Assembly (NCBI GenBank): GCA_022822185.1
Contig: JAJECE010000046.1
Span: 1 to 52,733 of the forward strand
Direction of reading: 5' to 3'
Length of the DNA: 52,733 nucleotides
DNA from: Rhodothermales bacterium
GTDB taxonomy: Bacteria > Bacteroidota > Rhodothermia > Rhodothermales > Bin80
How positions within the stretch are numbered: position 1 is the first letter of the stretch; the number at the start of each line of letters is the position of its first letter. The notes under the pieces were generated by a model. It was not told the origin of the DNA. It saw only the letters and a list, made by a program, of their open reading frames with translations, and did no database searches. Positions 9,202-27,491 of this stretch are shown here, piece by piece. The translations under genes and the position numbers were made by a program.

Positions 9202-10352
9202 GTGACTACTACGAAGTCCTGGGGATAAGCCGCGACGCATCCGCAGAAGAAATAAAGAAGGCCTATCGCAAGAAGGCGCTCAAAAATCACCCAGACCGAA
9301 ATCCAGGGGATAAGGCGGCCGAGTCCCGCTTTAAAGAGGCCGCGGTTGCGTACGAGGTTCTGAGTGATGAAAAGAAGCGTGAAATTTATGATCGCTACGG
9401 CGAAGCAGGCTTGCGTGGATCCGGAGGAGGGGGGCAATCCGGATTTACCGACGTAAACGATATTTTCAGTGCGTTCAGTGACATCTTTGGAAACTCAGCG
9501 GGAGGGGCATTTGACAGTTTCTTTGGCGGAAGACGGCAGCGAACCCGAGAACGGGGACAGCCAGGGGGAACCATTGCACAGCAACTGCCCCTAACGCTAG
9601 AAGAAATCGCAGACGGAACAGAAAAGCGCGTCAAAGTGCACCGAATGACTGCATGCCGGACCTGTGAGGGGAGTGGGGCAAAAGGGGGTGCTAGTCAATT
9701 AAAAACATGCAGTACCTGTAATGGGTCCGGGGAAGAGCGTCATGTACGACAGACCCCAATGGGACAGTTTATGAGCGTATCCGAGTGTGGCAGGTGCCGG
9801 GGCGAAGGGCTGCTGATTGAGGATAAATGTCCAGAATGCCGGGGGCAGGGGCGCCTTGATGGAGAATCCTCTATCAAGGTGAAAGTACCGGCCGGTGTAG
9901 AGGACGGGATGGTCATCAACCTGCGCGGACAGGGACATGCCGGGGCGCGAGGAGGCCGGCCAGGCGATCTGCGGATTGAGATCCGTGAGAAGGCACATGA
10001 GCACTTTATCCGCAGAGGCAGTGATTTGATTTACAATATGGAGATTTCTTTTCCCGATGCAGCACTGGGGACAGACATTGAGATACCCACCCTCACAGGG
10101 CGGGCAAGCATCACAATCGCTTCAGGAACCCAGTCTGGAAAGGTCCTGCGGATGCAGGGACGGGGACTGGGGCAACTCCGAAGCACCCGAAAAGGGGATC
10201 AACTCGTCCGAATTCGGGTATGGACCCCGCAGAATCTCTCCGCGTCCGACAAAAAAGCATTGGAAAAATTACGCGAATCCGAGACATTTCAGCCAGAGAA
10301 GACAGAGAAGAATAAAACGTTCTTTTCAAAAGTAAAGGATGCCTTTGCGTAG
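9198..10352 (+). CDS. dnaJ: Chaperone DnaJ (type I Hsp40)
   Basis: DnaJ hands unfolded proteins to DnaK and stimulates its ATPase. From the ATG that overlaps the grpE stop, the product has 384 residues. It has a J domain (1-70) with His31-Pro32-Asp33, a Gly/Phe-rich linker (about 75-115), and four zinc-binding CxxCxGxG motifs ([32 protein letters not shown]; about 150-225), followed by the two substrate-binding beta domains. The frame is open further upstream (to 9111), but the J domain and the operon overlap fix the start at 9198. All canonical type I parts are present. Confidence 0.97.
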
Positions 10353-10439
10353 CGGAATAAGCAGAGCAGGCGAATGAACGGAGCCGCTGACCTCCTGAAC
10401 GTACTTTAGAACCAGAGGCATTCTTCTTACCTACCTGAA

Positions 10440-10608
10440 AAGCGGGAACCTCGCTGGAAAATTCGTTCCTGTTCGCGTTGTTGTGCGGCATGAGGAAGAT
10501 CCTGTCAATGTGTAGTTCAGCCAGACACGGTCGTGTTGCCATGATGTATACGGGAGTGAAGTTGGCCGCAGATAAAATGGGAACCAATCCCCTGAAAGCG
10601 CATAGCAT
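10440..10608 (-). pseudogene. Possible decayed nucleotidyltransferase (NadD-like) fragment
   Basis: On the minus strand a short stretch reads SAANFTPVYIMATRPCLAEL followed by HIDRIFLMPHNN. It loosely recalls the start of nicotinate-nucleotide adenylyltransferases (GGxFNPVHxGH, then xLDRVLFxPxxxPPHK). The second histidine motif is lost, and the frame runs on into the antisense of dnaJ. A neighbouring frame reads LHSRIHHG at the same place, which would suit a frameshift. The resemblance is weak and may be chance. Confidence 0.2.
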
Positions 10609-10629
10609 CCTGATCAGGTTTATGTGATT

Positions 10630-10896
10630 ATGACAAATACGCTTTCAGTCTCTAACCAGTTCTCTAAAACAGGAGTTGGGCCAGAACAGGCTGAGGCCAT
10701 AGCGGATGTGATTGTAGATCCCGATGCCCAGAAAAATGAAAATCTCGCAATCAGGGAGTTTATGTATGATGCGTGCAGAGTTGTGCAGAGCAGAATAAAT
10801 GCTTGGCATGGCCGCATGTGTGCTCAAAAAAACTGGATTGTTGGAATGAGGACAGCGGTCACAGGTGCTTTGTTTGCCGGGGGACTCTTTTTCTGA
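10630..10896 (+). CDS. Small DUF1640/CCDC90-like protein, possibly truncated
   Basis: This 88-codon frame (a GTG two codons earlier is possible) begins MTNTLSVSNQFSKTGVGPEQ and AEAIADVIVD. That resembles the N-terminus of small DUF1640/CCDC90-type coiled-coil proteins, in which a 'gF...QAEAi' segment is followed by a coiled coil and one C-terminal membrane helix. Here the coiled coil (about 30-65) is short, and the hydrophobic tail (TAVTGALFAGGLFF) stops early, so it may be a worn or internally deleted copy. It stands alone in the 824-base space between dnaJ and leuS. The rest of that space (10897-11176) holds nothing I recognise beyond an AT-rich leader before leuS. Function is unknown; related proteins are often near mobile DNA. 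Confidence 0.4.
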   Translation: MTNTLSVSNQFSKTGVGPEQAEAIADVIVDPDAQKNENLAIREFMYDACRVVQSRINAWHGRMCAQKNWIVGMRTAVTGALFAGGLFF

Positions 10897-11176
10897 TACT
10901 TTTCGATAATCAGGAGGAAACGACAGATCTGCTTGCCTAAAAAACACCCCCGACCATCCTGTCTAGAAACTATATTCCTAGCGGCGTGAGATTCCGCACC
11001 CTTATATACATTCTCGATTTCTGTATGGACACCGCCAACCTCACGTCACTACGAAAATTCAGTTTTGTAATCCTAAACCCCGTAATTCACGCTTCCAATC
11101 CTGAAAATATTTGTTTCCCGTTCGGCGACTCCAACCTTGTTCGTGGAAAAACTAATTTCTAAGTTTCAATTAAAAA

Positions 11177-13774
11177 ATGGCGGTATATCCTTTTCGGAAA
11201 ATTGAAAGCCGATGGCAGACATACTGGGAGGAAAAGAAAACCTTCCGTACCCCCACCAAGGTCGATACGACCAAACCCAAATACTATGTGCTGGACATGT
11301 TTCCCTATCCCAGTGGGGCAGGGCTCCATGTTGGGCATCCCGAAGGGTACACGGCGACCGACATTGTGGCACGCTACAAGCGGATGCGCGGGTTCAATGT
11401 TTTGCATCCAATTGGATGGGATGCCTTCGGACTCCCTGCCGAACAGTATGCACTGCGGACAGGAACGCATCCGCGTATTACAACCGAACAAAATATTTGC
11501 CGGTTCCGAAAACAACTCAAATCCCTGGGCTTCTCCTATGACTGGGATCGTGAGATTGATACGACTGATCCCGGCTATTTCAAATGGACCCAGTGGATTT
11601 TCCTAAAACTGTTTGAACGCGGGCTGGCATATGAGGCTAAAGTGCCCGTATGGTGGTGTGAAGAATTAGGCACAACCCTCGCAAATGAGGAGGTGGTGGA
11701 TGGAAAGAGTGACATTGGCGGCTATCCCTGTGAGAGGCGGATGCTGCGGCAGTGGGTGCTGCGAATTACAGAGTATGCGGAACGGCTGCTGGATGGGTTG
11801 GAAGAGACGGACTGGCCCGTCAGCACCAAGGAAATGCAACGCAACTGGATCGGGCGCAGTGAAGGGGCGGACATTGAATTCCCCGTTCAGGATATGGATG
11901 CCGCCAGCATCCTCGTTTATACCACACGCCCGGACACGATCTTTGGGGCAACCTACATGGTGCTTGCTCCAGAGCATCCGATGGTAGACCGAATCTCTAC
12001 CGAAGTCCAGCAGGATGAAGTTCAAAACTACAAGGATCTGGCATCCCGTAAAAGCGATCTAGAGCGAACGGAACTCCAGAAAGAGAAGACAGGGGTGTTC
12101 ACGGGAGCATACGCCATCAATCCTGTCAACAAGGAATCCATCCCTGTCTGGATCGCAGACTATGTACTGTACTCCTATGGAACAGGGGCGATCATGGCGG
12201 TTCCAGGTCAGGATGAACGCGACTGGGCGTTCGCTGCAAAGTATGATCTCCCCATTCGCCGTACGGTTCAGCCGCCTCCGGATTTCACTGGACTGGCCTA
12301 CACAGGAGATGGCCCGGCAATGAACAGTGAATTTCTGGATGGTCTTCACATTGAAGATGCCAAAATACGCATCTTGGATTGGCTTGAGGAGCAGAAGGTG
12401 GGGTGCCGTAAAGTGAATTATAAATTGCGGGATTGGCTGTTTTCCAGGCAGCGCTACTGGGGCGAACCCATTCCGGTTGTTTTTCAGAACGAAGAAGTAC
12501 ACTCGTTACCCGAGAATGTGCTTCCGATCAATTTGCCTGAACTGGATGAGTTCAAACCAAGCGGAACCCCAGAGGGACCGCTTGCTTTAGCCACCGAGTG
12601 GCTCACGGTTACCAACCCTGATACCGGCGAGGTCGCTAGACGGGAGACCAATACTATGCCACAATGGGCAGGATCCTGCTGGTATTTCCTGCGCTACATT
12701 GACCCGCGCAACCCGGAACGAATGGTAGATCCCGAACTGGAAAAGTACTGGATGCCGGTGGATCTCTATATCGGTGGTGCAGAACATGCGGTTCTTCATC
12801 TGCTCTATGCCCGTTTCTGGCATATGGTGCTTTACGATGCGGGGGTGGTTTCAACGCCGGAACCGTTTGCAAAACTCGTTCATCAGGGAATGATTCTGGG
12901 CGAACTGGAATATACTGCCTGGCGCAGCAGCGCAACCGGACAATGGGTCAGCGCCGAAAAGGTCAGCGACGGAAAAGAAGTCCATACGGGGATAATCCTG
13001 GAACCGGTTCAGATTGATGTCGAGGCTGTCGCCAAAGATAGGGAGCGCTTTCTACTGAAAGATGCCCCCGATATCCAGTTGGATGTACGTGCATTCAAAA
13101 TGAGTAAAAGCCGTGGAAATGTTATCAATCCCGACGAGATCATTGAGCAGTATGGAGCAGATGCTTTCCGTCTCTATGAGATGTTTATGGGGCCTCTGGA
13201 ACAGGTGAAGCCGTGGAGCACTCGGGGGGTACACGGGACATTTCGGTTTCTTAGCCGTATCTGGCGACTGATCACAGAAAACCCGCTCAGTGAAAAAGAA
13301 CCGGATCGGAAACAGTTACGTATCCTGCATCAGACAATTGAGCGCGTGACCAATGACATTGAAAATCTGCGTATGAATACCGCCATCGCTGCATTGATGG
13401 AGTTCGTGAATGCAGCGTTCAAGTGGAAGGAACTTCCCCGCACGATTGCCGAGCCGTTTGTCCTTTTGCTTGCCCCGTTTGCGCCGCATATTGCAGAAGA
13501 GTTATGGTCTCGCTTTGGCTACAAAGACTCATTGGCCTATGCTCCCTGGCCGGAGTTGAATCTGGAATACCTTGCCGAGGAGTTAATCGATTTGCCAGTG
13601 CAGGTCAATGGCCGGGTTCGGGCAACGATCCGTGTTGCACCGGGGGCCGATAAGCAGAAGGTTCTTCATGTGGCAATACAGGAACCCAATGTAAAGCGAT
13701 TCCTGGGCGATGCTCCGCCACGCCGGGAGATTTATGTGCCTGGCCGGATCCTGAACCTTGTCGCCGCAAAGTAA
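11177..13774 (+). CDS. leuS: Leucine-tRNA ligase
   Basis: LeuRS charges tRNA-Leu and edits wrongly charged norvaline and isoleucine. The 865-residue product has the bacterial class Ia layout: catalytic fold with the HIGH box as HVGH (residues 51-54) and [13 protein letters not shown], the inserted CP1 editing domain (about 220-420, with [14 protein letters not shown] and the closing [15 protein letters not shown]), the KMSKS loop at 641-645 ([15 protein letters not shown]), and the anticodon-binding and C-terminal domains. The length is normal. The start [19 protein letters not shown] matches the family start. Its TAA overlaps the ATG of bshB1 by one base, so the two are translationally linked. 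Confidence 0.97.
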
Positions 13775-15248: not shown

Positions 15249-16997
15249 TCACTTTTTCGACATGAATGGTTTCTGAGCATCAACTCCCAGAATTTCGAAA
15301 GCCTTCTGTTGCGTCTTGCTGACCGTCTCCAGCATGATCACTTCTTTCTCTGTGTTCGTCCCTGTTTTCGGACGCACAACCAGTCGGCAAAGTCCCGCAA
15401 GTTCGTCCATCAGACTCGAAAAATCCATCACCTTTTCGTCCTCTTTCCCTTGTTTGGTCTGAACTTCCCCTTTCGCCTTGGGCAAATATCCGGCCCACTC
15501 TGCCATATTTTCACGCTGCACCTTTTTTTTCGCGGGATCATCCTCTGCATACAGCATCGGTGCCAGTTCCCGGCGCAGATGATACTCTACGTAATAAGCC
15601 AGCATACACAAAAAGACATGCGCAATCATCCGGTCTTTGTTTCGATGATACGTCGGACATGCATGGTGCGAGAGATGATTCATCGTACGGGAGGCAAACT
15701 CAACCATGGATAAACGCTTGTAATTCGCCACCAATTCTTGCGGTTCCGGCCCCTCCTTCATACTGGAACGGATGGCATACATGCCGTCAAGTCGCTCTGC
15801 CTGCGCAATCGCCTCCGTATTGCGGATGTAAGAAAAATGTCCATGCCGAATATCCAGCGTAAAAAAATTCCACATTTTGTGCTTCCCCACCACGCTCCCG
15901 ACCCGCACCCCAATAGCTCCCTGATCTTCCAACCTTTGCCCCTTTCGCCTTGTCACCTGCACAATTTCATCCAGTGCTTCCTCCGTTCTGGCCAAAAATT
16001 CTTCCCGCTGCCGTTTGCCCTTGTCTGCCTGCAAGGGATTCCTGTATAGGAGCAGACGCTCTTCCGGATATAGATGACTGCGGACTTCCACTAAATCCTG
16101 ATCATCAAACAGGCTCATTTGAATGTTTTCCTGTTCCATAACCTTGTGAATCTGACTCTTTTTCATACTGGTGATCCAGTCCAGCCCCGCGGGCATAACC
16201 TCTTTCTGGATGTGCTTTTGCTTCAAAATCTGCCGACATCCCACCAACACCATGTGCTTGAGTTCAAAGGTTTTCCGAATTTTGTCCACCTGGGTACTGA
16301 GAAACTTTCCATCGCCGGTATTATCGAAAAAGACATCCACCGACACTGGACAGCCATCAGGGGCGGTCATCAGACCAATAGCAATCTGCTCCGTGCCTGT
16401 CTTCCTGTCACGGTCGTACTCAAAGGCGGTAATTTCACTTTTCTTGTCATCCATATAACTGCCTGCGACATCACAGAGTACCATGCCTGACTCGGTGAGA
16501 TGCCGTTTAGCCAGACGGCGCTCAATGGCCGTCTTGTGTTTGACCAGTTTCCCCATCGCACGATAGAGATCATCCTGATCCACGCGGTTGAGGGCAAGTT
16601 CATCATTGAGTGTGCTGGCGTTACTGGCAACATCCAATATGGTACCGGTCGCCAGATTGCTTTGCTCCAGCACCCGTACCGCAATCATACCCAGCACCAG
16701 CCGGCGAAAGCGGGAATTATTTGGGGAAATCAGGTTCGGAATATTCAACTTTTCCATGATCCCCAGGACCGCAGCAACATGTCCATGAGGGGTATTGCTG
16801 ACAATGGTGAACGCATCTTCAACGGACTTAACGGCAATGCCCCCTTTCAAGAGGATTCGGATTCCGTCAATGACCGGTTGGGGGAGTTTGGTGAGATTTG
16901 CGAGGGTGATTTTCTGGGATTTTCCGTCGATCCATTTGGATTCACGGATGAGGATGGTCGGGGACCAGCGGCGGTTCTTCACGGTGTCAACAAACAT
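15249..16997 (-). CDS. IS1634-family DDE transposase
   Basis: The transposase cuts and joins the element's ends using an RNase H-like DDE site. From the ATG at 16997 the product has 582 residues; the frame opens two codons earlier with a TTG. The family pattern is clear: a first acidic region in VLCDVAGSYMDDKKSEIT (YDVTxxYFE in relatives), AFEYDRDRKTGTEQIAIGLM and SVDVFFDNTGDGKF, and the characteristic late block RNKDRMIAHVFLCMLAYYVEYHLRREL. The frame is intact, so the element may still be active. It points toward the leuS-bshB1 side. Confidence 0.92.
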   Translation of the reverse strand: MFVDTVKNRRWSPTILIRESKWIDGKSQKITLANLTKLPQPVIDGIRILLKGGIAVKSVEDAFTIVSNTPHGHVAAVLGIMEKLNIPNLISPNNSRFRRLVLGMIAVRVLEQSNLATGTILDVASNASTLNDELALNRVDQDDLYRAMGKLVKHKTAIERRLAKRHLTESGMVLCDVAGSYMDDKKSEITAFEYDRDRKTGTEQIAIGLMTAPDGCPVSVDVFFDNTGDGKFLSTQVDKIRKTFELKHMVLVGCRQILKQKHIQKEVMPAGLDWITSMKKSQIHKVMEQENIQMSLFDDQDLVEVRSHLYPEERLLLYRNPLQADKGKRQREEFLARTEEALDEIVQVTRRKGQRLEDQGAIGVRVGSVVGKHKMWNFFTLDIRHGHFSYIRNTEAIAQAERLDGMYAIRSSMKEGPEPQELVANYKRLSMVEFASRTMNHLSHHACPTYHRNKDRMIAHVFLCMLAYYVEYHLRRELAPMLYAEDDPAKKKVQRENMAEWAGYLPKAKGEVQTKQGKEDEKVMDFSSLMDELAGLCRLVVRPKTGTNTEKEVIMLETVSKTQQKAFEILGVDAQKPFMSKK

Positions 16998-17134
16998 GAA
17001 CAAGAATAGATTGGTTGTTTTTTAATGTCTATCACTGGACGAATGTACGGAAATGCTCACTCAGTCAGAAGGCCACTCATATTCTTTGAATTTCCACACT
17101 TCTCGAAGTCCTTGACCGTCCATGAAAAAACCGC

Positions 17135-17365: not shown

Positions 17366-17854
17366 CTACATCCCAAGTTGCCCTTTCATATCGTCCATCA
17401 CCGTATCATCAATCACAGAAAGATTTTTCGCCCGGGTATAATCTTCAATGTTGCGCTTCACCATCGGCTGAACATAGTCTGGGATTGCTTCTAAACGTGT
17501 TAAAGCCTCCGGTGTCCAGGTAAGAGCAGATTCCGTCTCCGCCGATGCAATCGCATCACTGATGACCCCGGTAAAGGGACATTTTCCACCGGACGGAACA
17601 GGTTCCGAAGCAGACTCTTCATGGCTTACCGCCAGATTGGAACGTAACGTCTCCATCGGCTCCGCGGGAGTCGTTCGGCCGCCAATCTTGACCCCCAAAG
17701 AACGTACCATCTGGGTTTCAGCCTTATTCGTCAGCATTGCCATCTGAACATCACACGCAGAACACTTATACACAATAGACATTGAGCCGTCAAACGGGCC
17801 ATGCGTCGAATGCAGGTTCATCGGCTGATCACAGGGGACACAAAGAAATTTCAT
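17366..17854 (-). CDS. Zinc-ribbon/PCP_red domain protein
   Basis: The 162-residue protein has two CxxC knuckles at the N-terminus (Cys5/Cys8 and Cys31/Cys34, a zinc-ribbon-like pair), a disordered middle with one more cysteine (Cys92, in GGKCPFTG), and a C-terminal PCP_red domain (111-160: LTWTPEALTRLEAIPDYVQP, then RNIEDYTRAKNLSVIDDTVM). PCP_red is the small C-terminal domain of BchB/ChlB, the subunit of dark-operative protochlorophyllide reductase, where it helps close the substrate pocket. No photosynthesis gene is in the window, so another tetrapyrrole or protein partner is likely. It is the last gene of the ten-gene operon and overlaps the Mrp gene by 4 bases (ATGA). The role is inferred from context only. 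Confidence 0.8.
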   Translation of the reverse strand: MKFLCVPCDQPMNLHSTHGPFDGSMSIVYKCSACDVQMAMLTNKAETQMVRSLGVKIGGRTTPAEPMETLRSNLAVSHEESASEPVPSGGKCPFTGVISDAIASAETESALTWTPEALTRLEAIPDYVQPMVKRNIEDYTRAKNLSVIDDTVMDDMKGQLGM

Positions 17855-18750
17855 GAAAATTGAGGTTTAATCCAGGATACCATGCGCTGCGTAATTTCTA
17901 AGATCGCAGCGGCTGCCGGCTTGGATGGATGATGTTTAAGGTACGATTCGCCGCTGTCCAGATAATAGGCAAGCCCCTGATCATAAGGGATTGCCCCCAG
18001 ATACGGGACATTATGTGCCTCGGCCAGGTCCTTTACTGTGGAGTCTCCCCTGAAAAACTGATCCCGGTAATCACACGCCGGACAGACCACCGCACTCATA
18101 TTCTCAATCACCCCCGCTACCCTGACCTTGGCAATTTCCGTTGCCATCGAGATTGAGCGCCCAACCACCTTCATCGCCACTAATGACGGGGTTGTCACGA
18201 CCACAGTACCCGATAAATTGGGAAGCAGGTCTGCCAGATTCTGGAGACGCTCCGCACCCGGAGGCAAATCAATCAATAAGACATCCAGATCGCCCCAGTC
18301 CGTATCCGAAAGTAACTCCCGCAATGCACTCATCTCCACCATGGAGCGCCATGTATATGCGCCCTGCTGCGTGTTTGCCTCCCATACAAGCGGAGTATAT
18401 TCACCGGGCAAAAACATCCCCATAGACATGACCGGGATACCAAACTCATTCCGGGCCGCCGCCATGGAACCATTCCGGGACAAAGGCTTGAAATCAGAAA
18501 CCCCCATCATCTGCATCATACACGGCCCGTTCAAATCGGCATCCATAACTCCCGTACGAATCCCGCTCCGGGTTAAGGCATCTGCCATACATGCAGTCAC
18601 CGTGCTTTTTCCAACCCCGCCCTTCCCGCTCATCACCGCAATCATCGTTCGGATACGCTTGAGGCGCTGATTGAGCCGGTCAAGTTGTTCGGCAACCTGC
18701 CCCAATACATCGGAGCCGCCATCGGTCGCTATGTCGTTGTAGTTCTTCAC
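17851..18750 (-). CDS. Mrp/NBP35-type P-loop ATPase
   Basis: The 299-residue protein belongs to the Mrp/ApbC branch of deviant Walker A ATPases, which carry and insert 4Fe-4S clusters. Visible are the P-loop SGKGGVGKST (41-50, with the signature lysine), the switch DADLNGP (about 70-76), LLIDLPPGAERLQ (about 158-170) and the bridging CxxC (Cys223, Cys226, in VVCPACDYRD). It lacks the N-terminal DUF59 domain of many Mrp proteins; instead about 35 residues of predicted helix precede the P-loop. It overlaps the Usp fusion gene upstream and the PCP_red gene downstream by 4 bases each, so it is tightly coupled to both. A likely task is feeding iron-sulfur clusters to the radical SAM enzyme, the ferredoxin or the other cofactor proteins of this operon; this is inference. 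Confidence 0.88.
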   Translation of the reverse strand: MKNYNDIATDGGSDVLGQVAEQLDRLNQRLKRIRTMIAVMSGKGGVGKSTVTACMADALTRSGIRTGVMDADLNGPCMMQMMGVSDFKPLSRNGSMAAARNEFGIPVMSMGMFLPGEYTPLVWEANTQQGAYTWRSMVEMSALRELLSDTDWGDLDVLLIDLPPGAERLQNLADLLPNLSGTVVVTTPSLVAMKVVGRSISMATEIAKVRVAGVIENMSAVVCPACDYRDQFFRGDSTVKDLAEAHNVPYLGAIPYDQGLAYYLDSGESYLKHHPSKPAAAAILEITQRMVSWIKPQFS

Positions 18751-20669
18751 GGGGCCTCGGCTGCCTGATCCCTGATCATCTCCTCCATCAACTTTAACCC
18801 ATCCTTGATTCCCTCTTCCGTAATCGCCAGCGTAATCAGATCCGTCTTTCGCGCACGCGCAACGGCTTCGATCCGTTCCTTGGTACGGGTCCGCATAAAT
18901 CCCTCAGGAACCCGATTCAGGCGTACATGCGCGTCCGGTACCCACATAAATTCTCCGTCCTGAACCAGATCCGCCATCGCCTTGCGGGTAGCTGCATCCC
19001 GGGATCCGCCATCATGCCCGCCCGGGGTCTTCAAATGCCCGCCCGGGGTGAGATTCTGCAATTCTTCCGCAGTCCCTGCGATCACATTGCGCACCATGTC
19101 CAGTGTGATGGTCGGAACGCGCTGCACGCGGGCACGCTTTTCAATCTGCGCTTTCGCACGGCGCATTTGATAACCATCGGGGATCGTACGAAGTTCCTTC
19201 AATGCATCCTTGCTCCACTTCAGACGGACATCATCAAATGTATCCTGCTCCTGCGTTCCCCCCTCCAACTTGGCCAACTGATCAATCGCCTCCTTGTCCA
19301 GCTTCTGAAACGCCTCCGCAGAACTGCCGCACACTGCACACCGGACCGGCTCAAAGTCCCGTGCAGCATACCCGCATCGGCTGCAAATCCAGGTCACCGA
19401 GTCCTTCGCAGCAATTTCTTTGGCGGCCGTGTCCTCTGCAATGATCCCCATCTTGATCATCGACGAACGGGGCAGGATATTGCCCATGGCCTGCTCTACA
19501 ATTTTGCGGGTAATCACAGAATGGCCCCGCTCCATTGCCCAGCGGTGGATTGTAGTCCGAGCAATTCCACGCGCAAAATCAGGGGCTGTATTTAAGAGCC
19601 GGGTCGCCGGCTCCGTCCACAGCATGGACTCCTCTGCACTCACATCCACCGGGGGAACATAGCGCTGACTGGATAACAGGATATTACAGGGGGCCTGACG
19701 AAGGAGGTTTTCGGTATTGCTCCCAATATCCATATCCTCGTCACTGTGTACGCCGATACGTCCCAACACCAGAAGCCACGGGTTTTCGCGCCGTACATAC
19801 TGGAGCATCTTCTCAAATGCCTTTCCATCCAGAAGTGTGATCTTCAGGTTCACCCCCGAATCGGCAGCGATCCGCCTTGCAATATCCAGATGCGACTGAT
19901 AGATCTTGGCCAGCCCGGTGTCTATCACCTCTTCATGGAGTTGCTCCTGCTCTTTGAACTTAAACACCTTCGAAGCCTTTTCGGTGAGCACATTCACAAT
20001 GCTGTTGAACATGGCATAATGCAGATAAGGATCGTACACCGATACCGCCTCCACCTGACGACCCGTCTTTTTGCCTAGTTCCAGCGCCGTACGCAGTCCC
20101 GCGAACGATTCCGGACTGCCATCAATCCCGACCACAATATTGCCCACAGGCGTTCCATCTTCGGTCACATCTTCCAGATCCACCTTCTTGATCACCAGTG
20201 TATCGGTCCGCACCCGTCGCGTGACCCGCTCACAGACACTCCCCAACACACTGTCCTTCACCGCCCCCAGCCCCAAAGCTCCCATAATAACTAACTCATA
20301 GTCACTCTCCTCAATATCCTTAGCAATCACCTTCCAGTTCTTTCCATCGTACATCTTGGGCTCAAACGGAATCCCCGCTTCTTTGCACCGCTGCTCTGCA
20401 ACCACCAGATAGGAGTCGCTGATGAGTTCCAGCCCCATGGTGATGAGCGTATCATGGATCTTTCGCTGCTTCTCCATTGCATCTTCAATCAGATACTCTT
20501 CGGGGAGCGTATACTCCATCTGCTTAAACCGGTAGTCATGCATCCGGGCTGCATATGCATGACTCGCCGTCACAGTCGACTCAAACCGCCCCGCCAACTC
20601 AATCGCCATATCCACCGCACTAATGGAGTGCTCCGAATTGTCAACCGGAACAAAAATCTTTTTGTACAT
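18747..20669 (-). CDS. Fusion: two UspA domains, three PCP_red domains and a rubredoxin-like knuckle
   Basis: This 640-residue protein joins modules not normally found together. UspA domain 1 (1-162) and UspA domain 2 (175-335) both keep the ATP-binding pattern G2xG9xG(S/T): Gly130/Gly133/Gly143-Ser144 and Gly303/Gly306/Gly316-Ser317. A first PCP_red domain follows (350-398, MLWTEPATRLLNTAPDFARG). Then comes a rubredoxin-like knuckle (WICSRCGY at 427-434 and VRCAVCGS at 442-449; cysteines 429, 432, 444, 447). A second PCP_red (483-531, LKWSKDALKELRTIPDGYQM), a glycine/proline/histidine linker with a short repeat (TPGGHLKTPGGHDGG), and a third PCP_red (574-622, FMWVPDAHVRLNRVPEGF) close the chain. 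There is no signal or membrane segment, so it is cytoplasmic. It may be an ATP-dependent scaffold for tetrapyrrole or iron-sulfur chemistry; function unknown. Confidence 0.85.
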   Translation of the reverse strand: MYKKIFVPVDNSEHSISAVDMAIELAGRFESTVTASHAYAARMHDYRFKQMEYTLPEEYLIEDAMEKQRKIHDTLITMGLELISDSYLVVAEQRCKEAGIPFEPKMYDGKNWKVIAKDIEESDYELVIMGALGLGAVKDSVLGSVCERVTRRVRTDTLVIKKVDLEDVTEDGTPVGNIVVGIDGSPESFAGLRTALELGKKTGRQVEAVSVYDPYLHYAMFNSIVNVLTEKASKVFKFKEQEQLHEEVIDTGLAKIYQSHLDIARRIAADSGVNLKITLLDGKAFEKMLQYVRRENPWLLVLGRIGVHSDEDMDIGSNTENLLRQAPCNILLSSQRYVPPVDVSAEESMLWTEPATRLLNTAPDFARGIARTTIHRWAMERGHSVITRKIVEQAMGNILPRSSMIKMGIIAEDTAAKEIAAKDSVTWICSRCGYAARDFEPVRCAVCGSSAEAFQKLDKEAIDQLAKLEGGTQEQDTFDDVRLKWSKDALKELRTIPDGYQMRRAKAQIEKRARVQRVPTITLDMVRNVIAGTAEELQNLTPGGHLKTPGGHDGGSRDAATRKAMADLVQDGEFMWVPDAHVRLNRVPEGFMRTRTKERIEAVARARKTDLITLAITEEGIKDGLKLMEEMIRDQAAEAP

Positions 20670-20691: not shown

Positions 20692-21018
20692 TCAATAGGT
20701 ATAAGGAATTCGGTCACGCACATACCGAAGCCGGTCAATCACATACTCCATCCCTGAATAATCATGCAGGGTTACAGCATTCAGCAGGGCTGCATCCAGA
20801 AACGGTTCGCAATCCGGAAGATCCTTTGATGCCTCTATACAGGCAATGAACCGGCTGAGTTCGTAGCGAACTTTCACGAATTGATTCCAGATATCGGAAT
20901 CCGGATCCTGTCTGGCAATCCACCGGCTGAGGCGCCGGACTTCCAGGCCAAGGATCGGCGGCACCATCTGTCGGAACTGATCAACCGGAATGTATTGGAT
21001 CTCGTTTTCAACCATCAT
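20692..21018 (-). CDS. Hypothetical protein in the bd-like operon
   Basis: A 108-residue, mostly helical, soluble protein that I do not recognise. It begins MMVENEIQYIPVDQFRQMVP and has two cysteines (in RFIACIEASKDLPDCEPFLD), too few for a cluster of its own. It overlaps the upstream ferredoxin gene by 4 bases and is 22 bases from the Usp fusion gene, so it is certainly part of the operon and probably a partner of one of the two. Confidence 0.75.
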   Translation of the reverse strand: MMVENEIQYIPVDQFRQMVPPILGLEVRRLSRWIARQDPDSDIWNQFVKVRYELSRFIACIEASKDLPDCEPFLDAALLNAVTLHDYSGMEYVIDRLRYVRDRIPYTY

Positions 21019-21218
21019 ACAGACAGGGGAACCCCGGCGGCAGTATCATCAGGAACAGGCTGGATTGCGTCAAACTCACAGGCAACCAGACATTCGGTAA
21101 AGTCCGTACATGTATCATCAATCACATAGATCGGATCTCCGACGTGGATCGCATGAATCGGACACATGTCCAGACATTCATCGCATGCGGTACAGGACTG
21201 AGTGATATAGTAGGCCAT
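21015..21218 (-). CDS. Small ferredoxin with one complete and one incomplete cluster motif
   Basis: A 67-residue bacterial-type ferredoxin that carries electrons in the cytoplasm. The first cluster motif is complete: Cys9, Cys12, Cys15 and Cys19-Pro (CTACDECLDMCP). In the second, CTDFTECLVAC, the second ligand position is Phe40, leaving Cys37, Cys43 and Cys47. That could hold a 3Fe-4S cluster, or a 4Fe-4S cluster with an outside ligand, or none. The middle part GDPIYVIDD resembles YfhL-type ferredoxins. It lies directly after the radical SAM gene (2-base gap), which suggests that it supplies electrons to that enzyme. Confidence 0.9.
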   Translation of the reverse strand: MAYYITQSCTACDECLDMCPIHAIHVGDPIYVIDDTCTDFTECLVACEFDAIQPVPDDTAAGVPLSV

Positions 21219-21220
21219 CG

Positions 21221-22468
21221 CTACACCAGATGCGTGGGCTTTTTGTACACATTCGCCGGCATCCCTGCAAACCCGTTTCCCCGCTTCATCCCACTCAGTG
21301 CATGGTTCATTACTTCGGTCGTGACCTTCCCGATTCCTTTACTCCTCGCATAGGCTTCCACACCTTTGCGCGTCTTTTTTCGGATAAAACTGATCGGGAT
21401 CCGCATCAAACGCTCCTCTGCAGATGGGGCCCACTGCAATGCGGACTGCGATAAGGCCAAACCTGTCGGCTGATATCTGCAGGCAGGATCCTCACTCAGA
21501 TAATCACCCGTTGCCGCAAATGCACGACACCGGCAGCCACCACATAAATTCTGGAACTCACACCTGCCACACCGCCCCTTCAACTTTGCCGGGTCTCTGA
21601 GTTCTGCAAATACCGAAGAATCATTCCAGATGGTGGTGAACGTCTGCTCCAGCACGCTCCCCGCCACCACATCCATATACGGACAGGGAGTCACATTCCC
21701 TTCGGGGGTAATCCTGCAGTACTCGGTTGCCGCCATGCAGCCGCCACTTTCCATCCCGCCCCGCCCCTTTTCATAAGCGATCTGCTTGAACTGCGGAGCA
21801 CATTTGCTGCGTACGAGCATGGGACGATAGTCGTCCTGCCAGTCAATCAGTCTGGTGAGCATGGACTCGGTTGCCGCAGCAGACAAATCCGTCATACCCT
21901 GCCCCCGGCCCGTCTGCACCAGAAAATACAGATTGAAGGACCAGGCACCATGCTCACGCGCAAAATCCAGAAGATCCGGAACCTCATCATAATTCTCCTC
22001 CATCACTGTCGTCTGCACCAGTACTTCCAGCCCTTCCTCCTTACATACCCTGAGTGCACGTACCGAATGCTGCCATGCATTGCGACCACCCCGGAACGCA
22101 TTGTGGCGGTCAGGATCTGCGGAGTCAATACTGATTCCGACCCCTTTCACCCCACATTCGACCATCTTGCGAGCCACTTCTCTGGTCACCAGTACACCAT
22201 TGGTTCCCATCACAACCCAGATTCCCATATCACTTGCCGCTTGCGCAATCCTGTAAATATCCTTTCGCAGGAGTGGTTCTCCACCGGTAAGGATGAGCAT
22301 CTCTGTGCCCAGATTCTTCATCTCGCCGAGCACCTCCATACACTCATCAGTAGTCAATTCACGTTCCGCAGCCCGACCGGCAGATAAATAACAGTGTGGA
22401 CACTGCAGATTACACTTTTTGGTGAGATTCCACGAAACCAGCGACGGTATGTAGGTCTTTGTGCTCAC
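21221..22468 (-). CDS. Radical SAM/SPASM protein of the AhbD/NirJ type with C-terminal PCP_red domain
   Basis: The 415-residue enzyme has the radical SAM cluster motif at Cys19, Cys23 and Cys26 (KKCNLQCPHC), then the LTGGEPLLRKDI and MGTNGVLVTREVA patterns and ISIDSADPDRHNAFRGG. Its SPASM part carries many cysteines for auxiliary clusters (SGGCMAATEYCRITPEGNVT, PCPYMD, then GRCGRCEFQNLCGGCRCRAF and DPACRY). This layout is that of AhbD and NirJ, which act on the side chains of haem precursors. An added PCP_red domain follows (344-393: LQWAPSAEERLMRIPISF). A tetrapyrrole substrate is therefore likely, but whether it makes ordinary haem, a d1-like haem or something new is not visible. It lies 3 bases after the cytochrome/EB_dh gene. 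Confidence 0.88.
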   Translation of the reverse strand: MSTKTYIPSLVSWNLTKKCNLQCPHCYLSAGRAAERELTTDECMEVLGEMKNLGTEMLILTGGEPLLRKDIYRIAQAASDMGIWVVMGTNGVLVTREVARKMVECGVKGVGISIDSADPDRHNAFRGGRNAWQHSVRALRVCKEEGLEVLVQTTVMEENYDEVPDLLDFAREHGAWSFNLYFLVQTGRGQGMTDLSAAATESMLTRLIDWQDDYRPMLVRSKCAPQFKQIAYEKGRGGMESGGCMAATEYCRITPEGNVTPCPYMDVVAGSVLEQTFTTIWNDSSVFAELRDPAKLKGRCGRCEFQNLCGGCRCRAFAATGDYLSEDPACRYQPTGLALSQSALQWAPSAEERLMRIPISFIRKKTRKGVEAYARSKGIGKVTTEVMNHALSGMKRGNGFAGMPANVYKKPTHLV

Positions 22469-22471
22469 CGA

Positions 22472-24001
22472 TCAGGTCTTTTTTCTGCGGCGTGCCCGGA
22501 AGCGCACCAGCCCAACAATGGCAACCTCGGCGACCAATACAATCAAAAACCACTTCGCCATAGGAAGCGCCGCAGATTCCGTCTCCATCGGCTCCAAATA
22601 CAGATGATACCAGGCAGATAGGCCCCGCTTATTGCCGCGCTCTGCATTAAAGCCATCCCATGCCGTAAAGGAAATCGGTACGAAGGCGGACTCCTGCATC
22701 CTATAGTCACCCAGGGTTCGGGATCCCTTCAGCCGGACGGTCCAGACCCCGTCTTCATACGCTGCGGTTCGTTCCAGTTCCACCCCGTTATCGGTAATCC
22801 GGCCTGCTCCCTGCCCCGTCAATACCACCGCCGAATCCGTCGCCAGATCTGTATACCAGATTGTCATCGGAAACTTACTGTCTCCAAACATAAAGTAGGG
22901 ACGCTCCAATCCTTCCGGGGTACGGGAGGGAAGCAGTACGGCAACGGCATCGGACCAGCCGCCGGTCAACGTATCCGGCTCTGTCGCATCAAATACCGGC
23001 ACATCCGTGTCCGGATGATTCCTTCCTTCGGTTTCCGCCGTCATATCATGCCACTGAAGTTCAATCGCAATCTCCGATTCATTGTAGACCCCCTTTACCC
23101 TGATCCCGTTCACGCCCGGATAGAATGCCCGGCCGGGCTCAATGATCTGGCCCACAATCGGAAAATACGTCCCCGTCGCATCTGCAAATAATTCATCTCC
23201 CAACTCCAGTTCGCCCGTCTGCCCCCGTACACTGACCACTGTGCCATAGTCCGGCTCATCTCTCGACAGTGACCACACATAGTCCACCAGTGCCCACCGA
23301 TCCTCCTCCTCATTGATCGTCTGCAGGTAGGAGGGCATCGGAGTTCCGTTCAGACCAGTCATAAACGTGCGATACACATCTTCACGGGTTGCACTTGCCC
23401 GGAAGGTCCACCGCTTTGTCATGTCTGCCGGGCGGATCGGAAAGCCCCAGTCATCGACAAGTTCAGGGGCACTTGGGCCATTACCGCGCCCGTTGATCCC
23501 GTGACAGTCGGTGCACTGATTCGCCTCAAAGATCTCTCGACCGCGGGCAAGGTGCACTGGATCGTCCGAATAGGACGGAGCCTTGGGGATGTCCACAATG
23601 GTCGGATTGCCGTAGGGCCCCTCAAACGCAGGCTCAAAAGTCTTGAGATAGTAAGCCAGCCCGGTGATTTCATTTTCGGAAAGGATCCCGTCCCATGGCG
23701 GCATGCTCGTATAGGGCATCCCCAGGCGGATGCTCCGCTTGATATCTTCGGTTGTCGGAAGCTCTCCGCTCTCGGTAGACCGGAACTTATAATTCCCTGA
23801 TGTAAAGTCCCGGGGTGCCGGCCGCAGATAGGAAGTTGCAACCGCATTGGCATCTCCCTCATATCCGTGGCAGTGCGCACATTTGATGTCATAAACTTCC
23901 TTCCCCTCTGCACGCTGCACTTCTGTGCCCAGATCATTCTCCTGCATCGCCATCGCAGGATATGCAAACCAAATCAACAATAATGGCAGTAGCGTTCGCA
24001 T
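22472..24001 (-). CDS. Dihaem cytochrome c with ethylbenzene-dehydrogenase-type haem-b domain
   Basis: The 509-residue exported protein has a signal peptide (about 1-19), two cytochrome c domains with CxxCH at 41-45 (CAHCH) and 163-167 (CTDCH), an EB_dh domain (about 275-465) and a C-terminal membrane helix (about 478-500, WFLIVLVAEVAIVGLVRFRA). EB_dh is the haem-b-binding fold of the gamma subunits of ethylbenzene dehydrogenase, DMSO-type dehydrogenases and nitrite oxidoreductase. Its typical strands are seen in AVAVLLPSRTPEGLERPYFM and VWTVRLKGSRTLGDY. So three haems in one chain, facing the periplasm and held by one helix. No molybdenum enzyme is nearby; it probably passes electrons toward the CydA-like protein. 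It is 12 bases after the preceding cytochrome gene. Confidence 0.85.
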   Translation of the reverse strand: MRTLLPLLLIWFAYPAMAMQENDLGTEVQRAEGKEVYDIKCAHCHGYEGDANAVATSYLRPAPRDFTSGNYKFRSTESGELPTTEDIKRSIRLGMPYTSMPPWDGILSENEITGLAYYLKTFEPAFEGPYGNPTIVDIPKAPSYSDDPVHLARGREIFEANQCTDCHGINGRGNGPSAPELVDDWGFPIRPADMTKRWTFRASATREDVYRTFMTGLNGTPMPSYLQTINEEEDRWALVDYVWSLSRDEPDYGTVVSVRGQTGELELGDELFADATGTYFPIVGQIIEPGRAFYPGVNGIRVKGVYNESEIAIELQWHDMTAETEGRNHPDTDVPVFDATEPDTLTGGWSDAVAVLLPSRTPEGLERPYFMFGDSKFPMTIWYTDLATDSAVVLTGQGAGRITDNGVELERTAAYEDGVWTVRLKGSRTLGDYRMQESAFVPISFTAWDGFNAERGNKRGLSAWYHLYLEPMETESAALPMAKWFLIVLVAEVAIVGLVRFRARRRKKT

Positions 24002-24013
24002 CTTGTTTTCCAG

Positions 24014-24841
24014 TTAATGAGGCATGCCCTGTGCACGTGGTTCATAGCCTGTGTACTCATACAGAAACAGAATCACATCCCAGATTTCTTCTTCGGTCAG
24101 GAACAGCTCCCAGGCGGGCATGGCACTAGACCAGGGGGTTGACTCGGAAGGGAGCCCGGGGGCTCCTTTTGCGATACGCCAGAACAAATAGGATTCCTGA
24201 AGCATCGCAATCGTCGTTGCATCATTGAAATTGGCGGGTAGTGGATCATAACCATGTGCGAACATTCCTGCCCCCTGCATATTGTCTCCGTGACAATAGA
24301 AGCAGTTCTGAAAATAAATCCGCCGCCCGTTCGCAACATGCGCTGCAAACGCCGCCTCGTCGGTATGCTCCAGCTCCCGGTATGGATTGTTCGCGGTCGC
24401 CAGATCAATAGAGTTCCCCGCAAATGTAATGGAAGATGGCGGAGGAGGATGGATCGTCCGACCGCTGGAGGGGGGCTGCGGCGCTTCATTCATACTGGCA
24501 TACGTCCAGGCGGCAACCGCCGCGGGGATCACAAGAAGAACAATCACCAAAGCAATACGGTACTCTTGGGCTACCATGAACCGGACAATGGACTGTCGCG
24601 CCTCCTCTAATTCCTCATTGTCTGCCGACAGGTATGCCATCAGCGCAATCGTAATGATCGCCATGAACAGCACGATAATGGAATTCGGGAGCGGGGGATT
24701 AATTCCATACGAAAAAGCAGCCCAGAGCGCAACCCACCAGATTCCCAGCCAGGCGATGCGATTGAGTTGGATCCAGCGCGTTAACACCTGCTGAATCAGA
24801 ACCATCACGGCTGCAATTCCTAACAGTACAAATAAATTCAT
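24014..24841 (-). CDS. Membrane protein with C-terminal cytochrome c domain
   Basis: The 275-residue protein has four predicted membrane helices (about 1-19, 28-46, 52-71, 96-114), a proline-rich linker (118-137) and a periplasmic cytochrome c domain with one CxxCH (180-184, CFYCH). The likely methionine ligand lies in SAMPAWELFLTEEEIWDVI. It is 29 bases after the dihaem cytochrome gene and 12 bases before the cytochrome/EB_dh gene. It is probably a fixed subunit of the oxidase complex, filling the place of CydB as a membrane partner, though its helices do not resemble CydB. Confidence 0.85.
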   Translation of the reverse strand: MNLFVLLGIAAVMVLIQQVLTRWIQLNRIAWLGIWWVALWAAFSYGINPPLPNSIIVLFMAIITIALMAYLSADNEELEEARQSIVRFMVAQEYRIALVIVLLVIPAAVAAWTYASMNEAPQPPSSGRTIHPPPPSSITFAGNSIDLATANNPYRELEHTDEAAFAAHVANGRRIYFQNCFYCHGDNMQGAGMFAHGYDPLPANFNDATTIAMLQESYLFWRIAKGAPGLPSESTPWSSAMPAWELFLTEEEIWDVILFLYEYTGYEPRAQGMPH

Positions 24842-24870: not shown

Positions 24871-25662
24871 TTACATGGAGGCCAGATAATCCACCAATGC
24901 CTGCAGTTCCGAAGTAGAAACCTGCTCATAAAAATTGTTTGCATTCAACATCGTTGACATCACCCCCTCCACATACCCTTCGGCAATGACCTCATCTGGA
25001 TCTACGATGGCCTCATAAATCTCCGCGCGGGTCATGCGCTGTCCAAGGCCTTGCAGCGTGGGCCCTGCCCCGGCAGTTCCGTCTAATGAATGGCAGGTAT
25101 TGCACAGATAGGTGGTAAAAACCGTTTCTGCGTCTCGGTTGCCGCCAACCGCAACGGCGGGGGCTGCATCCTGCGCCGGGGCCTGCCCCTGCCACTGCAG
25201 CGTGGTCTGCATCGTGACCGTTGGCGTTCCTCCAAGCGACTGTAAATAGGCAATCACCGTTAGAATTTCCTGATCCGTCAACGCAATCGGAGGACGGGCA
25301 ACATTCGGCATGCCGGCAACATACCCCTCGACCACATAGGCGTTGGGATCATACATGGACTCTGCCAGATAGTCTACATCACTCTGCCCCGGGACGCGCT
25401 CGGCGGCAATCGCCCCGATATTGTCCAGATCCGGAAACCGCAGTCCCGTTCCGTGATCGCCCATCGTATGGCAGGTCAGGCAGGTCCCTTTGCCTGCGAC
25501 AATTTCCTCGCCAATCGGGATCATCTCTTCAATGGTCAGATCACTGGCGATCTCAATATCCTCCGGGGGATCCGTCCGTTTCTGCGGTACCCATAAACTC
25601 ACGTACCAGTAGAAGACGCTGACCACGATGGTGAATCCGAATATTTGCAGGGCCTGTTTCAC
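24871..25662 (-). CDS. Membrane-anchored dihaem cytochrome c
   Basis: The 263-residue protein has an N-terminal uncleaved helix (about 7-24, IFGFTIVVSVFYWYVSLWVP) and two cytochrome c domains with CxxCH at 61-65 (CLTCH) and 187-191 (CNTCH), joined by an alanine/proline-rich linker. Probable methionine ligands lie in YVAGMPNVARPP and in VEGVMSTMLNANNF. Each domain resembles the small c-type domains fused to or paired with oxidases and nitric oxide reductases. The gene follows the CydA-like gene after 26 bases, so it is the likely direct electron donor of that protein. Confidence 0.88.
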   Translation of the reverse strand: MKQALQIFGFTIVVSVFYWYVSLWVPQKRTDPPEDIEIASDLTIEEMIPIGEEIVAGKGTCLTCHTMGDHGTGLRFPDLDNIGAIAAERVPGQSDVDYLAESMYDPNAYVVEGYVAGMPNVARPPIALTDQEILTVIAYLQSLGGTPTVTMQTTLQWQGQAPAQDAAPAVAVGGNRDAETVFTTYLCNTCHSLDGTAGAGPTLQGLGQRMTRAEIYEAIVDPDEVIAEGYVEGVMSTMLNANNFYEQVSTSELQALVDYLASM

Positions 25663-25688: not shown

Positions 25689-27491
25689 TCACGCGGGTTC
25701 GGTGGAGACGGTGGTTTCCTCTTCATTCCACCGGGACCCTGATTTGGGGGTCCAGTCCTTTCGCCCGGAAAGACCGGCCAGAAAGAAAACAATGGCAATG
25801 AGCAGGAAGAAGACAATCACAATCGCACTGACTACGCCCCCGGCAAATCCCAGCGTAGGCGTAAATGCATCCACCGAGGTATCCCGCATCACGCCATACA
25901 CATGCCAGTGCTGCCGCATTCCTGCACGCACATACCCCATCAGGCCCATCAGCCAGGTAAAGGTGATGGCGAGGAAGAACAGGGCATACTGGGATCGGGC
26001 AGAGATTTTTCCCCAGACGATTTCACCACGGGACTTTGCATTCTTGAACAGGAACAGATCAATCACCGTCACTGAGGCCATCGCAAACAGGACCGACAGA
26101 ACCTGTGGACGGCTGAGCCCGATCCGTGTTTGTGCATCTACAAAGTATCCATACACGCCAAGGAAGACTACATAGATCACCACGACCGCAAAAATACCGA
26201 ACTGGATCCAGTTGCCGATCCTGGCCCAGGAGACCGTAGCCTCCTTGTTGGCCCGGCGATAGAGCAAAAAGCTGACATAGGTGGTAAGGATCAAAAGATT
26301 CACCGCGGTATTCTTTGCACTCATGACTCCCAGCACATTCAGAATGGGGTGATGAGAGCCGCCCATTGCCCGGGCCTCCTCTACGGTTGCAACGAGCGAA
26401 TGCGGTGTCGCCCACACGATAAAGCAAAGTGTAATGACCCCCAGAAGGTACTTGATAAACCCCCGAAAACGCTCTGCCCCCGGAATTCGGGCCATACTCA
26501 GCCAGAGATAGTAGTTTGCCGCCAGAAACAAATTCCCGATCAGGACCGCCTGCACAATAAAAAGCCACGAAAACGTCCCTCCCATGAGCGTAATCCCGAG
26601 ACTCTGATCATAGGCATAGATCTCTACCCCCAGCCAGTATCCCGCAAACGGGAGCGGAAGGAGTGCACAGATTGCGACAAAAATGCCGATATATCCCATC
26701 CAGTCGTAATGCGCCTTGGCCGCCAGCGTCTTTGCTCCCAGAAACTTGAATGCACCATACGCGGCTCCAATCGCACCACCGAATGCGACATTCGCAATCA
26801 GTCGGTGGATATTGATCGGCATCCAGGTGTAGTTATTGATTGCTTCCCAGAGGCTGGTCAGATTGCCCATATCATCAATGCCGTTGGGCGTATTCATAAA
26901 GGTCAGCCACGCATTGGCGATAAACATAATCGCCGTCCCCACAAGGTTGAGCATCAAGCCGATGAAGAGATGCAGGCGGGGAGAAAGTTTTCCCCAGCCG
27001 TAATAGTACGCGTACAGAAAAAACGCTTCCAGGAAAAAAAGCAGGACATACGGCAGAAAGGTCCAACTGAAAATCTTCACCAGATACTGCGTCAATGCCG
27101 GATAGAACACCAGCAGCCCAAACGTGAGCAGCGCTCCGAGCGTGGCGGTAAAGGAGAATGATACGGAAAGGAGTTTCGTGAAGTCGTAGGCCAGTTGATC
27201 GTAGCGCTTGTCTCCGGTCCGATATCCGATGAATTCAATCACCAGTGCAAACATGGGAACTGCCAGCACAAACGCGGCAAACATCAGGTGCAGTTCCGCG
27301 ACGGCCCACATCAGCACGCGGCTGCTAATGAAAGGCAGCGCCCTGTATTCAGGGGCTGCCTCCTGTGGCATCCCCCACGCCGGGCCTGCTACCAGTGCCA
27401 GCAGCACGAAAGCCGCCAGACCTGCGGGGAGGCCTCTCCACCATGCACCTTGACAGGTGGTACGCACGACCGGAATCGAATCAGTAGTCAC
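25689..27491 (-). CDS. CydA-like subunit I of a bd-superfamily oxidase
   Basis: The 600-residue protein starts with GTG and an added N-terminal hydrophobic leader (about 15-40), then a CydA-type core of about nine helices. Probable matches to the E. coli subunit are His68 (AELHLMFAAF, for His19), Glu155 (LLFFLEAFFLYAYYYGW, for Glu107) and His229 (INIHRLIANV, for His186). The GMRQHWHVYG stretch parallels the GRQPW motif. Aligned by eye on FFLE, the place of the haem-d ligand Glu99 is Pro147. No cydB is present. The published bd superfamily classification separates quinol oxidases from OR-C and OR-N types that lack the quinol site; the three adjacent cytochromes c fit such a type. It is the first gene of the operon. 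Confidence 0.88.
   Translation of the reverse strand: MTTDSIPVVRTTCQGAWWRGLPAGLAAFVLLALVAGPAWGMPQEAAPEYRALPFISSRVLMWAVAELHLMFAAFVLAVPMFALVIEFIGYRTGDKRYDQLAYDFTKLLSVSFSFTATLGALLTFGLLVFYPALTQYLVKIFSWTFLPYVLLFFLEAFFLYAYYYGWGKLSPRLHLFIGLMLNLVGTAIMFIANAWLTFMNTPNGIDDMGNLTSLWEAINNYTWMPINIHRLIANVAFGGAIGAAYGAFKFLGAKTLAAKAHYDWMGYIGIFVAICALLPLPFAGYWLGVEIYAYDQSLGITLMGGTFSWLFIVQAVLIGNLFLAANYYLWLSMARIPGAERFRGFIKYLLGVITLCFIVWATPHSLVATVEEARAMGGSHHPILNVLGVMSAKNTAVNLLILTTYVSFLLYRRANKEATVSWARIGNWIQFGIFAVVVIYVVFLGVYGYFVDAQTRIGLSRPQVLSVLFAMASVTVIDLFLFKNAKSRGEIVWGKISARSQYALFFLAITFTWLMGLMGYVRAGMRQHWHVYGVMRDTSVDAFTPTLGFAGGVVSAIVIVFFLLIAIVFFLAGLSGRKDWTPKSGSRWNEEETTVSTEPA

Follow-up and report, generated by a model that had tools for sequence, protein, structure and literature searches.

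A radical SAM-SPASM-PCP_red fusion enzyme largely confined to genomes that encode an OR-type bd-like oxygen reductase

Introduction

AhbD is the haem b synthase of the sirohaem route. Two auxiliary [4Fe-4S] clusters have been shown in the AhbD enzymes of methanogens and sulfate reducers, and the full SPASM motif of AhbD reads CX20-33CX17CX36-37CX2CX5CX2CX17-35C (PMC10452713). NirJ, the radical SAM enzyme of haem d1 synthesis, carries one auxiliary cluster (PMC12505453). OR-type oxidases are proposed to be the principal terminal oxidases in Nitrospinota and Nitrospirales, two groups of key nitrite oxidisers; the enzymes of these groups are assigned to CydAA' of the OR-N type, a cytochrome bd relative thought to draw electrons from cytochrome c, and the composition and mode of action of OR-type oxidases are without experimental confirmation (PMC10839748, PMC12342949). 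In the open-access literature, we found no description of PCP_red together with radical SAM and no paper that linked the bd oxidase of Nitrospira or Nitrospina to a radical SAM enzyme.

Here, we describe such an enzyme and its operon in a window (the whole stretch of DNA analysed) of 52,733 nt from a Rhodothermales bacterium (assembly GCA_022822185.1, contig JAJECE010000046.1). The original prediction had placed at 21221-22468 an AhbD/NirJ-like radical SAM enzyme that carries its own PCP_red domain.

Results

The gene and its domains

The gene, rSAM-PCP_red, occupied 21221-22468, started with GTG, and encoded 415 aa. The predicted fusion was a real frame with all domains above the Pfam cut-offs; the one correction concerned the strand, because the gene is read from 22468 to 21221, as a minus-strand gene. 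The Radical_SAM domain (residues 14-170, 21959..22429, minus strand; E = 1.5e-33) contained the CX3CX2C motif as C19, C23, and C26, and was followed by a SPASM domain that was also recognised by motif comparison and alignment (Pfam extent residues 244-304, 21557..21739, minus strand; E = 1.7e-9); both were above the curated Pfam cut-offs. The C-terminal PCP_red domain (PF08369; residues 346-390, 21299..21433, minus strand) scored 44.3 bits against a cut-off of 32.5 (E = 1.8e-11), and 49.4 bits in the genome search. It had been predicted at residues 344-393, and structures of the BchB C-terminal domain matched it independently: in a sequence search against solved structures, residues 326-390 aligned with 3AEK and residues 343-390 aligned with the NMR structure 2KRU. 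The AlphaFold2 model, made from 36 homologues, was confident throughout, including PCP_red (mean pLDDT 89.7). The enzyme also matched NCBIfam models, below their cut-offs, and was conserved in loci L036-L122. All 80 best relatives shared its architecture; this set, from many phyla, was chosen by similarity to the window enzyme. Thus, the fusion is no frame or assembly artefact, and the rSAM-SPASM-PCP_red architecture is real.

Operon composition and conservation

The operon consisted of ten minus-strand genes. The first encoded the CydA-like subunit of a bd-type (OR-type) oxygen reductase (25689..27491; 600 aa, about 12 hydrophobic helices), with a Pfam CydA match of 89 bits, conserved active-site haem ligands H68, E155, and H229, and a conserved H174. 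Three c-type cytochromes followed: one with two CXXCH motifs (24871..25662), a membrane cytochrome with one CXXCH (24014..24841), both recognised by Pfam and sequence, and one with two CXXCH fused to an ethylbenzene-dehydrogenase-gamma-like haem b domain (22472..24001; Pfam, NCBIfam). Behind rSAM-PCP_red were the genes of a small 4Fe-4S ferredoxin of 67 aa, the probable electron donor (21015..21218; Pfam, NCBIfam), and of p108, a 108-aa protein of no known family in the Pfam search (20692..21018). The last three genes encoded a protein with two Usp domains, three PCP_red domains, and a weak rubredoxin-like motif at residues 427-454 (18747..20669; Pfam), an Mrp/ApbC-type P-loop ATPase (17851..18750; Pfam, NCBIfam), and a 162-aa protein with a C-terminal PCP_red domain (17366..17854; Pfam). 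All five PCP_red matches of the genome were inside this operon, in three proteins (genome search). Promoter and terminator scans of the operon gave results at chance level. Just downstream, a 584-aa frame (15249-17003, minus strand) was transposase-like by impression from the sequence.

The gene order was kept in the complete relatives within Rhodothermales and, over the part that their contigs cover, in MAGs that included Calditrichota and Marinimicrobia; some versions had one or two extra genes behind the rSAM gene. One locus (L056, plus strand) contained two proteins without Pfam match, of 264 aa (10293-11087) and 198 aa (11352-11948), inserted next to the ferredoxin. In operons of the Rhodothermales type, the p108 gene was conserved, flanked by the genes of the ferredoxin and the Usp-PCP_red protein. 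In Nitrospirota genomes (e.g., L183-L186), the rSAM gene kept only its neighbour with Usp and three PCP_red domains, and in Nitrospina it stood alone.

Further PCP_red fusions were found in Nitrospirota. In genome G409, an enzyme of the AhbD-like branch ended in PCP_red (L192 3583-4971, plus strand; 37.4 bits, over the cut-off); its neighbours in the tree were without PCP_red, and it lay outside the main rSAM-PCP_red clade. Haem-type enzymes of two branches thus carry a fused PCP_red domain, and this adds weight to a tetrapyrrole-related role of the domain here. The other PCP_red proteins of the operon had also been predicted to work on tetrapyrroles, and for this part the support was indirect: it came from the L192 fusion and from the Usp protein with three PCP_red domains, whose gene in Nitrospira is next to the rSAM gene even where the other operon genes are missing. 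Every role that we assign to PCP_red is one that we infer. A full-length match similar to the L192 fusion was seen in genome G419. Three other Nitrospirota loci (L189-L191) encoded radical SAM proteins of ~710-730 aa with three PCP_red domains, and the gene in L191 adjoined a bd-like oxidase gene.

Cysteine pattern and relationship to known enzymes

The SPASM region contained eight cysteines, C223-x20-C244-x17-C262-x37-C300-x2-C303-x5-C309-x2-C312-x17-C330, in exactly the spacing of the published full AhbD motif and in addition to CX3CX2C. All eight were invariant among 36 aligned homologues. By analogy, C223, C244, C262, and C312 would be the ligands of AuxI, and C300, C303, C309, and C330 would be those of AuxII. 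In the reference alignment, the AuxI set was kept in AhbD, the NirJ2-like enzyme, and the rSAM-PCP_red lineage, and was lost in NirJ (D, N, D, and T replaced the four cysteines), AhbC, and the TIGR04053 enzymes. C223 occurred in AhbD and the NirJ2-like enzyme and in none of the sampled NirJ, AhbC, TIGR04053, or peptide enzymes. Because the AuxI set is kept in AhbD and NirJ2 and lost in NirJ, the pattern fits the former two and not the latter; the haem-branch pattern of the original prediction is thus better described as AhbD/NirJ2-like than as AhbD/NirJ-like.

The best NCBIfam models were NirJ2 (TIGR04055, 345 bits) and AhbD (TIGR04545, 310 bits), each below its 500-bit cut-off, and the NirJ model (TIGR04051) gave 221 bits against a curated 515 bits. 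A Nitrospirota homologue scored alike (NirJ2, 324 bits; AhbD, 320 bits). A maximum-likelihood tree was built on the catalytic part (328 columns) with 37 rSAM-PCP_red proteins and a reference set from which the NirJ reference L208 had been left out. The rSAM-PCP_red proteins formed one clade (UFBoot 83), to which the NirJ2-like enzyme of a Paenibacillus plasmid was sister (UFBoot 97). The group of AhbD and TIGR04053 (UFBoot 97) adjoined these two at a joint node of UFBoot 70 only, and NirJ and AhbC formed a separate clade (UFBoot 100). AU tests, with 5000 replicates only, rejected a grouping with NirJ (P about 0), placement with AhbD alone (P = 0.001), and placement with the wider AhbD group (P = 0.034). 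By these sequence comparisons, rSAM-PCP_red is a sister lineage of its own beside AhbD/TIGR04053, and a member of neither AhbD nor NirJ. Kinship with the haem branch was upheld by the cysteines, the family models, and the tree, but membership in AhbD or NirJ was rejected by the AU tests. On a Thermus plasmid, a TIGR04053 radical SAM gene (L125 5983-7110, plus strand) immediately followed a gene that is annotated as a nitrite reductase.

The top Foldseek structures for rSAM-PCP_red were PqqE, SkfB, and SuiB. These nearest solved structures could suggest a SPASM enzyme that modifies a peptide or protein, altering an oxidase subunit or a cytochrome, with PCP_red as its docking module. No AhbD or NirJ structure was among the matches, and the model of AhbD itself also finds SuiB first (PMC10452713), so a fold search cannot separate haem from peptide enzymes. 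The AU test rejected a grouping with PqqE and MftC (P = 0.002), although the less strict SH test did not (P = 0.089), and C223 was absent from PqqE, MftC, and the GDL enzyme in the reference alignment. A short-ORF survey found no conserved short peptide gene near divergent homologues: the ferredoxin was the sole real small gene, and the others overlapped longer genes. The presence of p108 nearby in the operon would suit a peptide or protein modifier, but p108 was predicted to be a four-helix bundle (AlphaFold2, pLDDT 92), which is not an RRE fold, and it was not detected in the Nitrospira/Nitrospirota and Nitrospina loci. Kinship with peptide-modifying enzymes and a peptide substrate encoded nearby, the combination named in the original prediction as evidence against it, was therefore not what we found, and modification of a peptide or protein is highly improbable. 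The search for an RRE partner near rSAM-PCP_red found none. The model of p108, which was all-helical, had no PDB match at E below 0.001, and this protein was rejected both as an RRE and as a precursor.

Co-occurrence with the oxidase

With few exceptions, the genomes that encoded the rSAM-PCP_red protein, those of Nitrospira and Nitrospina among them, also encoded an OR-type bd-like oxygen reductase. This link, which was absent from the original prediction, is the strongest functional clue. Among 114 genomes of Rhodothermales, PCP_red was present in 27 of the 28 whose CydA-like match was strong (over 900 bits), compared with 0 of the other 86. The sole strong-CydA genome without PCP_red was 74% complete, and four of the 86 genomes without PCP_red carried only distant, canonical-like CydA matches. 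Within one genus of ten genomes, six had both oxidase and PCP_red and four had neither. The 148 Nitrospirota genomes were divided into 51 with both, 2 with rSAM-PCP_red only, 4 with the oxidase only, and 91 with neither; thus, rSAM-PCP_red was present in 51 of 55 oxidase genomes vs. 2 of 93 others. The P-values of these associations (Rhodothermales, Fisher P = 2.5e-25; Nitrospirota, P = 2.5e-32) overstate the certainty, because related genomes are not independent. Partial AhbD-like matches, which may be cut rSAM genes, were seen in two of the four oxidase-only Nitrospirota genomes. In G421 and G472, the oxidase was present and there was no rSAM-PCP_red match, and some OR-type homologues may do without this enzyme. 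A CydA-like gene was also found in 23 of 25 genomes of other phyla, all of which had been picked for having rSAM-PCP_red.

The oxidase and rSAM genes were mostly unlinked in Nitrospirota, and their co-occurrence is therefore not accounted for by joint inheritance as a single operon. Alternatively, the enzyme could have a different role, in tetrapyrrole metabolism or redox stress, and share with the oxidase no more than its regulation under low oxygen. The Usp domains of the operon are consistent with this, as is the finding that UspA-linked clusters of Nitrospira marina are induced when oxygen is low (PMC8115632). However, the gene-by-gene co-loss with the oxidase inside one genus and the co-occurrence without linkage in Nitrospirota argue for need and not for shared regulation alone; hence, we regard co-regulation as a very unlikely explanation.

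Haem supply in the genome

The genome contained a compact operon for making haem b by the coproporphyrin-dependent route, hemA-hemC-hemD-hemB-hemQ-hemE-hemH-hemY, in which HemQ and HemY were assigned by family search and the rest were read from the sequence. HemQ was present in 10 of 10 genomes of the genus, and thus also in the four that lack rSAM-PCP_red. Because the HemQ-type route is complete, rSAM-PCP_red is not needed for bulk haem b; this operon, together with HemQ in the sister species without rSAM-PCP_red, weakened its candidacy as the ordinary haem b synthase of the organism. Judged by eye, none of the 11 radical SAM matches in the genome was recognised as another AhbC/NirJ/AhbD-like SPASM enzyme.

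The main alternative to our preferred explanation concerns haem b under scarce oxygen. As an oxygen- and peroxide-independent synthase, rSAM-PCP_red would convert coproheme to haem b, as AhbD does, and fill the high-affinity oxidase and its cytochromes when oxygen is too scarce for HemQ. Its AhbD-like clusters are consistent with this role, as is the low-oxygen setting of bd-like oxidases; moreover, coproheme, the substrate of AhbD, is an intermediate of the haem route in use, and HemQ was the only other enzyme seen for the step from coproheme to haem b. However, the score of rSAM-PCP_red was far below the AhbD cut-off, the tree excluded it from AhbD, and conserved positions differed from those of AhbD (Y27 and not R, N14 and not E, R252 and not F). 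In addition, a general source of haem b should not track a single oxidase family so strictly, and no need for five PCP_red domains in three proteins would be expected. Overall, we consider an alternative haem b synthase unlikely.

Discussion

The explanation that we prefer, with somewhat better than even confidence, is that rSAM-PCP_red represents an unnamed lineage of haem-type radical SAM/SPASM enzymes, adjacent to AhbD and NirJ2, and that its dedicated task is biogenesis of the OR-type oxidase encoded in the same operon. On the assumption that this oxidase needs a special haem, rSAM-PCP_red probably makes or finishes it. From the co-occurrence, it is very likely that the enzyme serves the oxidase, and the cysteine pattern and relationships make a tetrapyrrole its likely substrate; the chances that its product differs from haem b are about even.

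A dedicated enzyme of this kind could act as follows. The operon ferredoxin would reduce the radical SAM cluster, and the 5'-deoxyadenosyl radical would attack a side chain of an iron porphyrin, either haem b or the coproheme III that CpfC supplies. The electron would leave through the two auxiliary clusters, as proposed for AhbD. The PCP_red domain might hold or hand over the tetrapyrrole, or it might dock to the other PCP_red proteins, which, together with the Mrp ATPase, would pass the tailored haem to the oxidase.

A more specific proposal, which we put forward as rather doubtful, is that the operon makes a new haem, distinct from haems b, d, d1, o, and a. In this proposal, the radical SAM enzyme would act on coproheme or haem b by trimming or oxidising a side chain, and the PCP_red proteins and Mrp would form a light-independent DPOR-like reductase or a carrier. 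OR-type oxygen reductases, among them those with which Nitrospira and Nitrospina respire, would carry the resulting chlorin-type haem as the cofactor of their active site.

In tracking OR-type oxidases across many phyla, rSAM-PCP_red offers a concrete candidate for a cofactor pathway dedicated to them, and the haem content of these oxidases becomes testable by gene deletion and mass spectrometry. It also offers a possible role for PCP_red, a domain known from chlorophyll synthesis yet scattered through non-phototrophs.

Comparison with known systems

The PCP_red domain is the C-terminal domain of ChlB/BchB (protochlorophyllide reductase), and the window domain resembles it in scoring above the Pfam cut-off and in matching the solved 3AEK and 2KRU. 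In contrast to ChlB/BchB, rSAM-PCP_red has no nitrogenase-like catalytic domain, its Pfam domains being only radical SAM, SPASM, and PCP_red. With NirJ, it shares a haem-type radical SAM/SPASM kinship and the AuxII cysteines, but the AuxI cysteines are replaced by D/N/D/T in NirJ and the AU test rejects their grouping.

AhbD and rSAM-PCP_red have in common a radical SAM domain followed by a full SPASM domain, the same eight-cysteine spacing, and R188, R291, R313, and R315. They differ in that the window enzyme is below the AhbD cut-off, carries the extra PCP_red domain, belongs to its own clade, and departs from AhbD at residues 14, 27, and 252; its gene is linked to an oxidase operon rather than to ahb genes, in a genome without a recognised AhbC-type enzyme. 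The likeness to NirJ2 and the NirJ2-like enzyme of Paenibacillus lies in the best-scoring model, the sister position in the tree, Y27, N14, and the full cysteine set. Unlike the window enzyme, the NirJ2-like enzyme is without PCP_red and sits among NirJ1-like and AsnC-type (AhbA/B-like) genes, which adjoin it on the plasmid of Paenibacillus polymyxa (L124 4809-8016, plus strand). The CydA-like protein of the window, which we assign at the level of the OR type as a whole, resembles the OR-N and OR-C families (CydAA') in its CydA Pfam match and its conserved core His and Glu residues.
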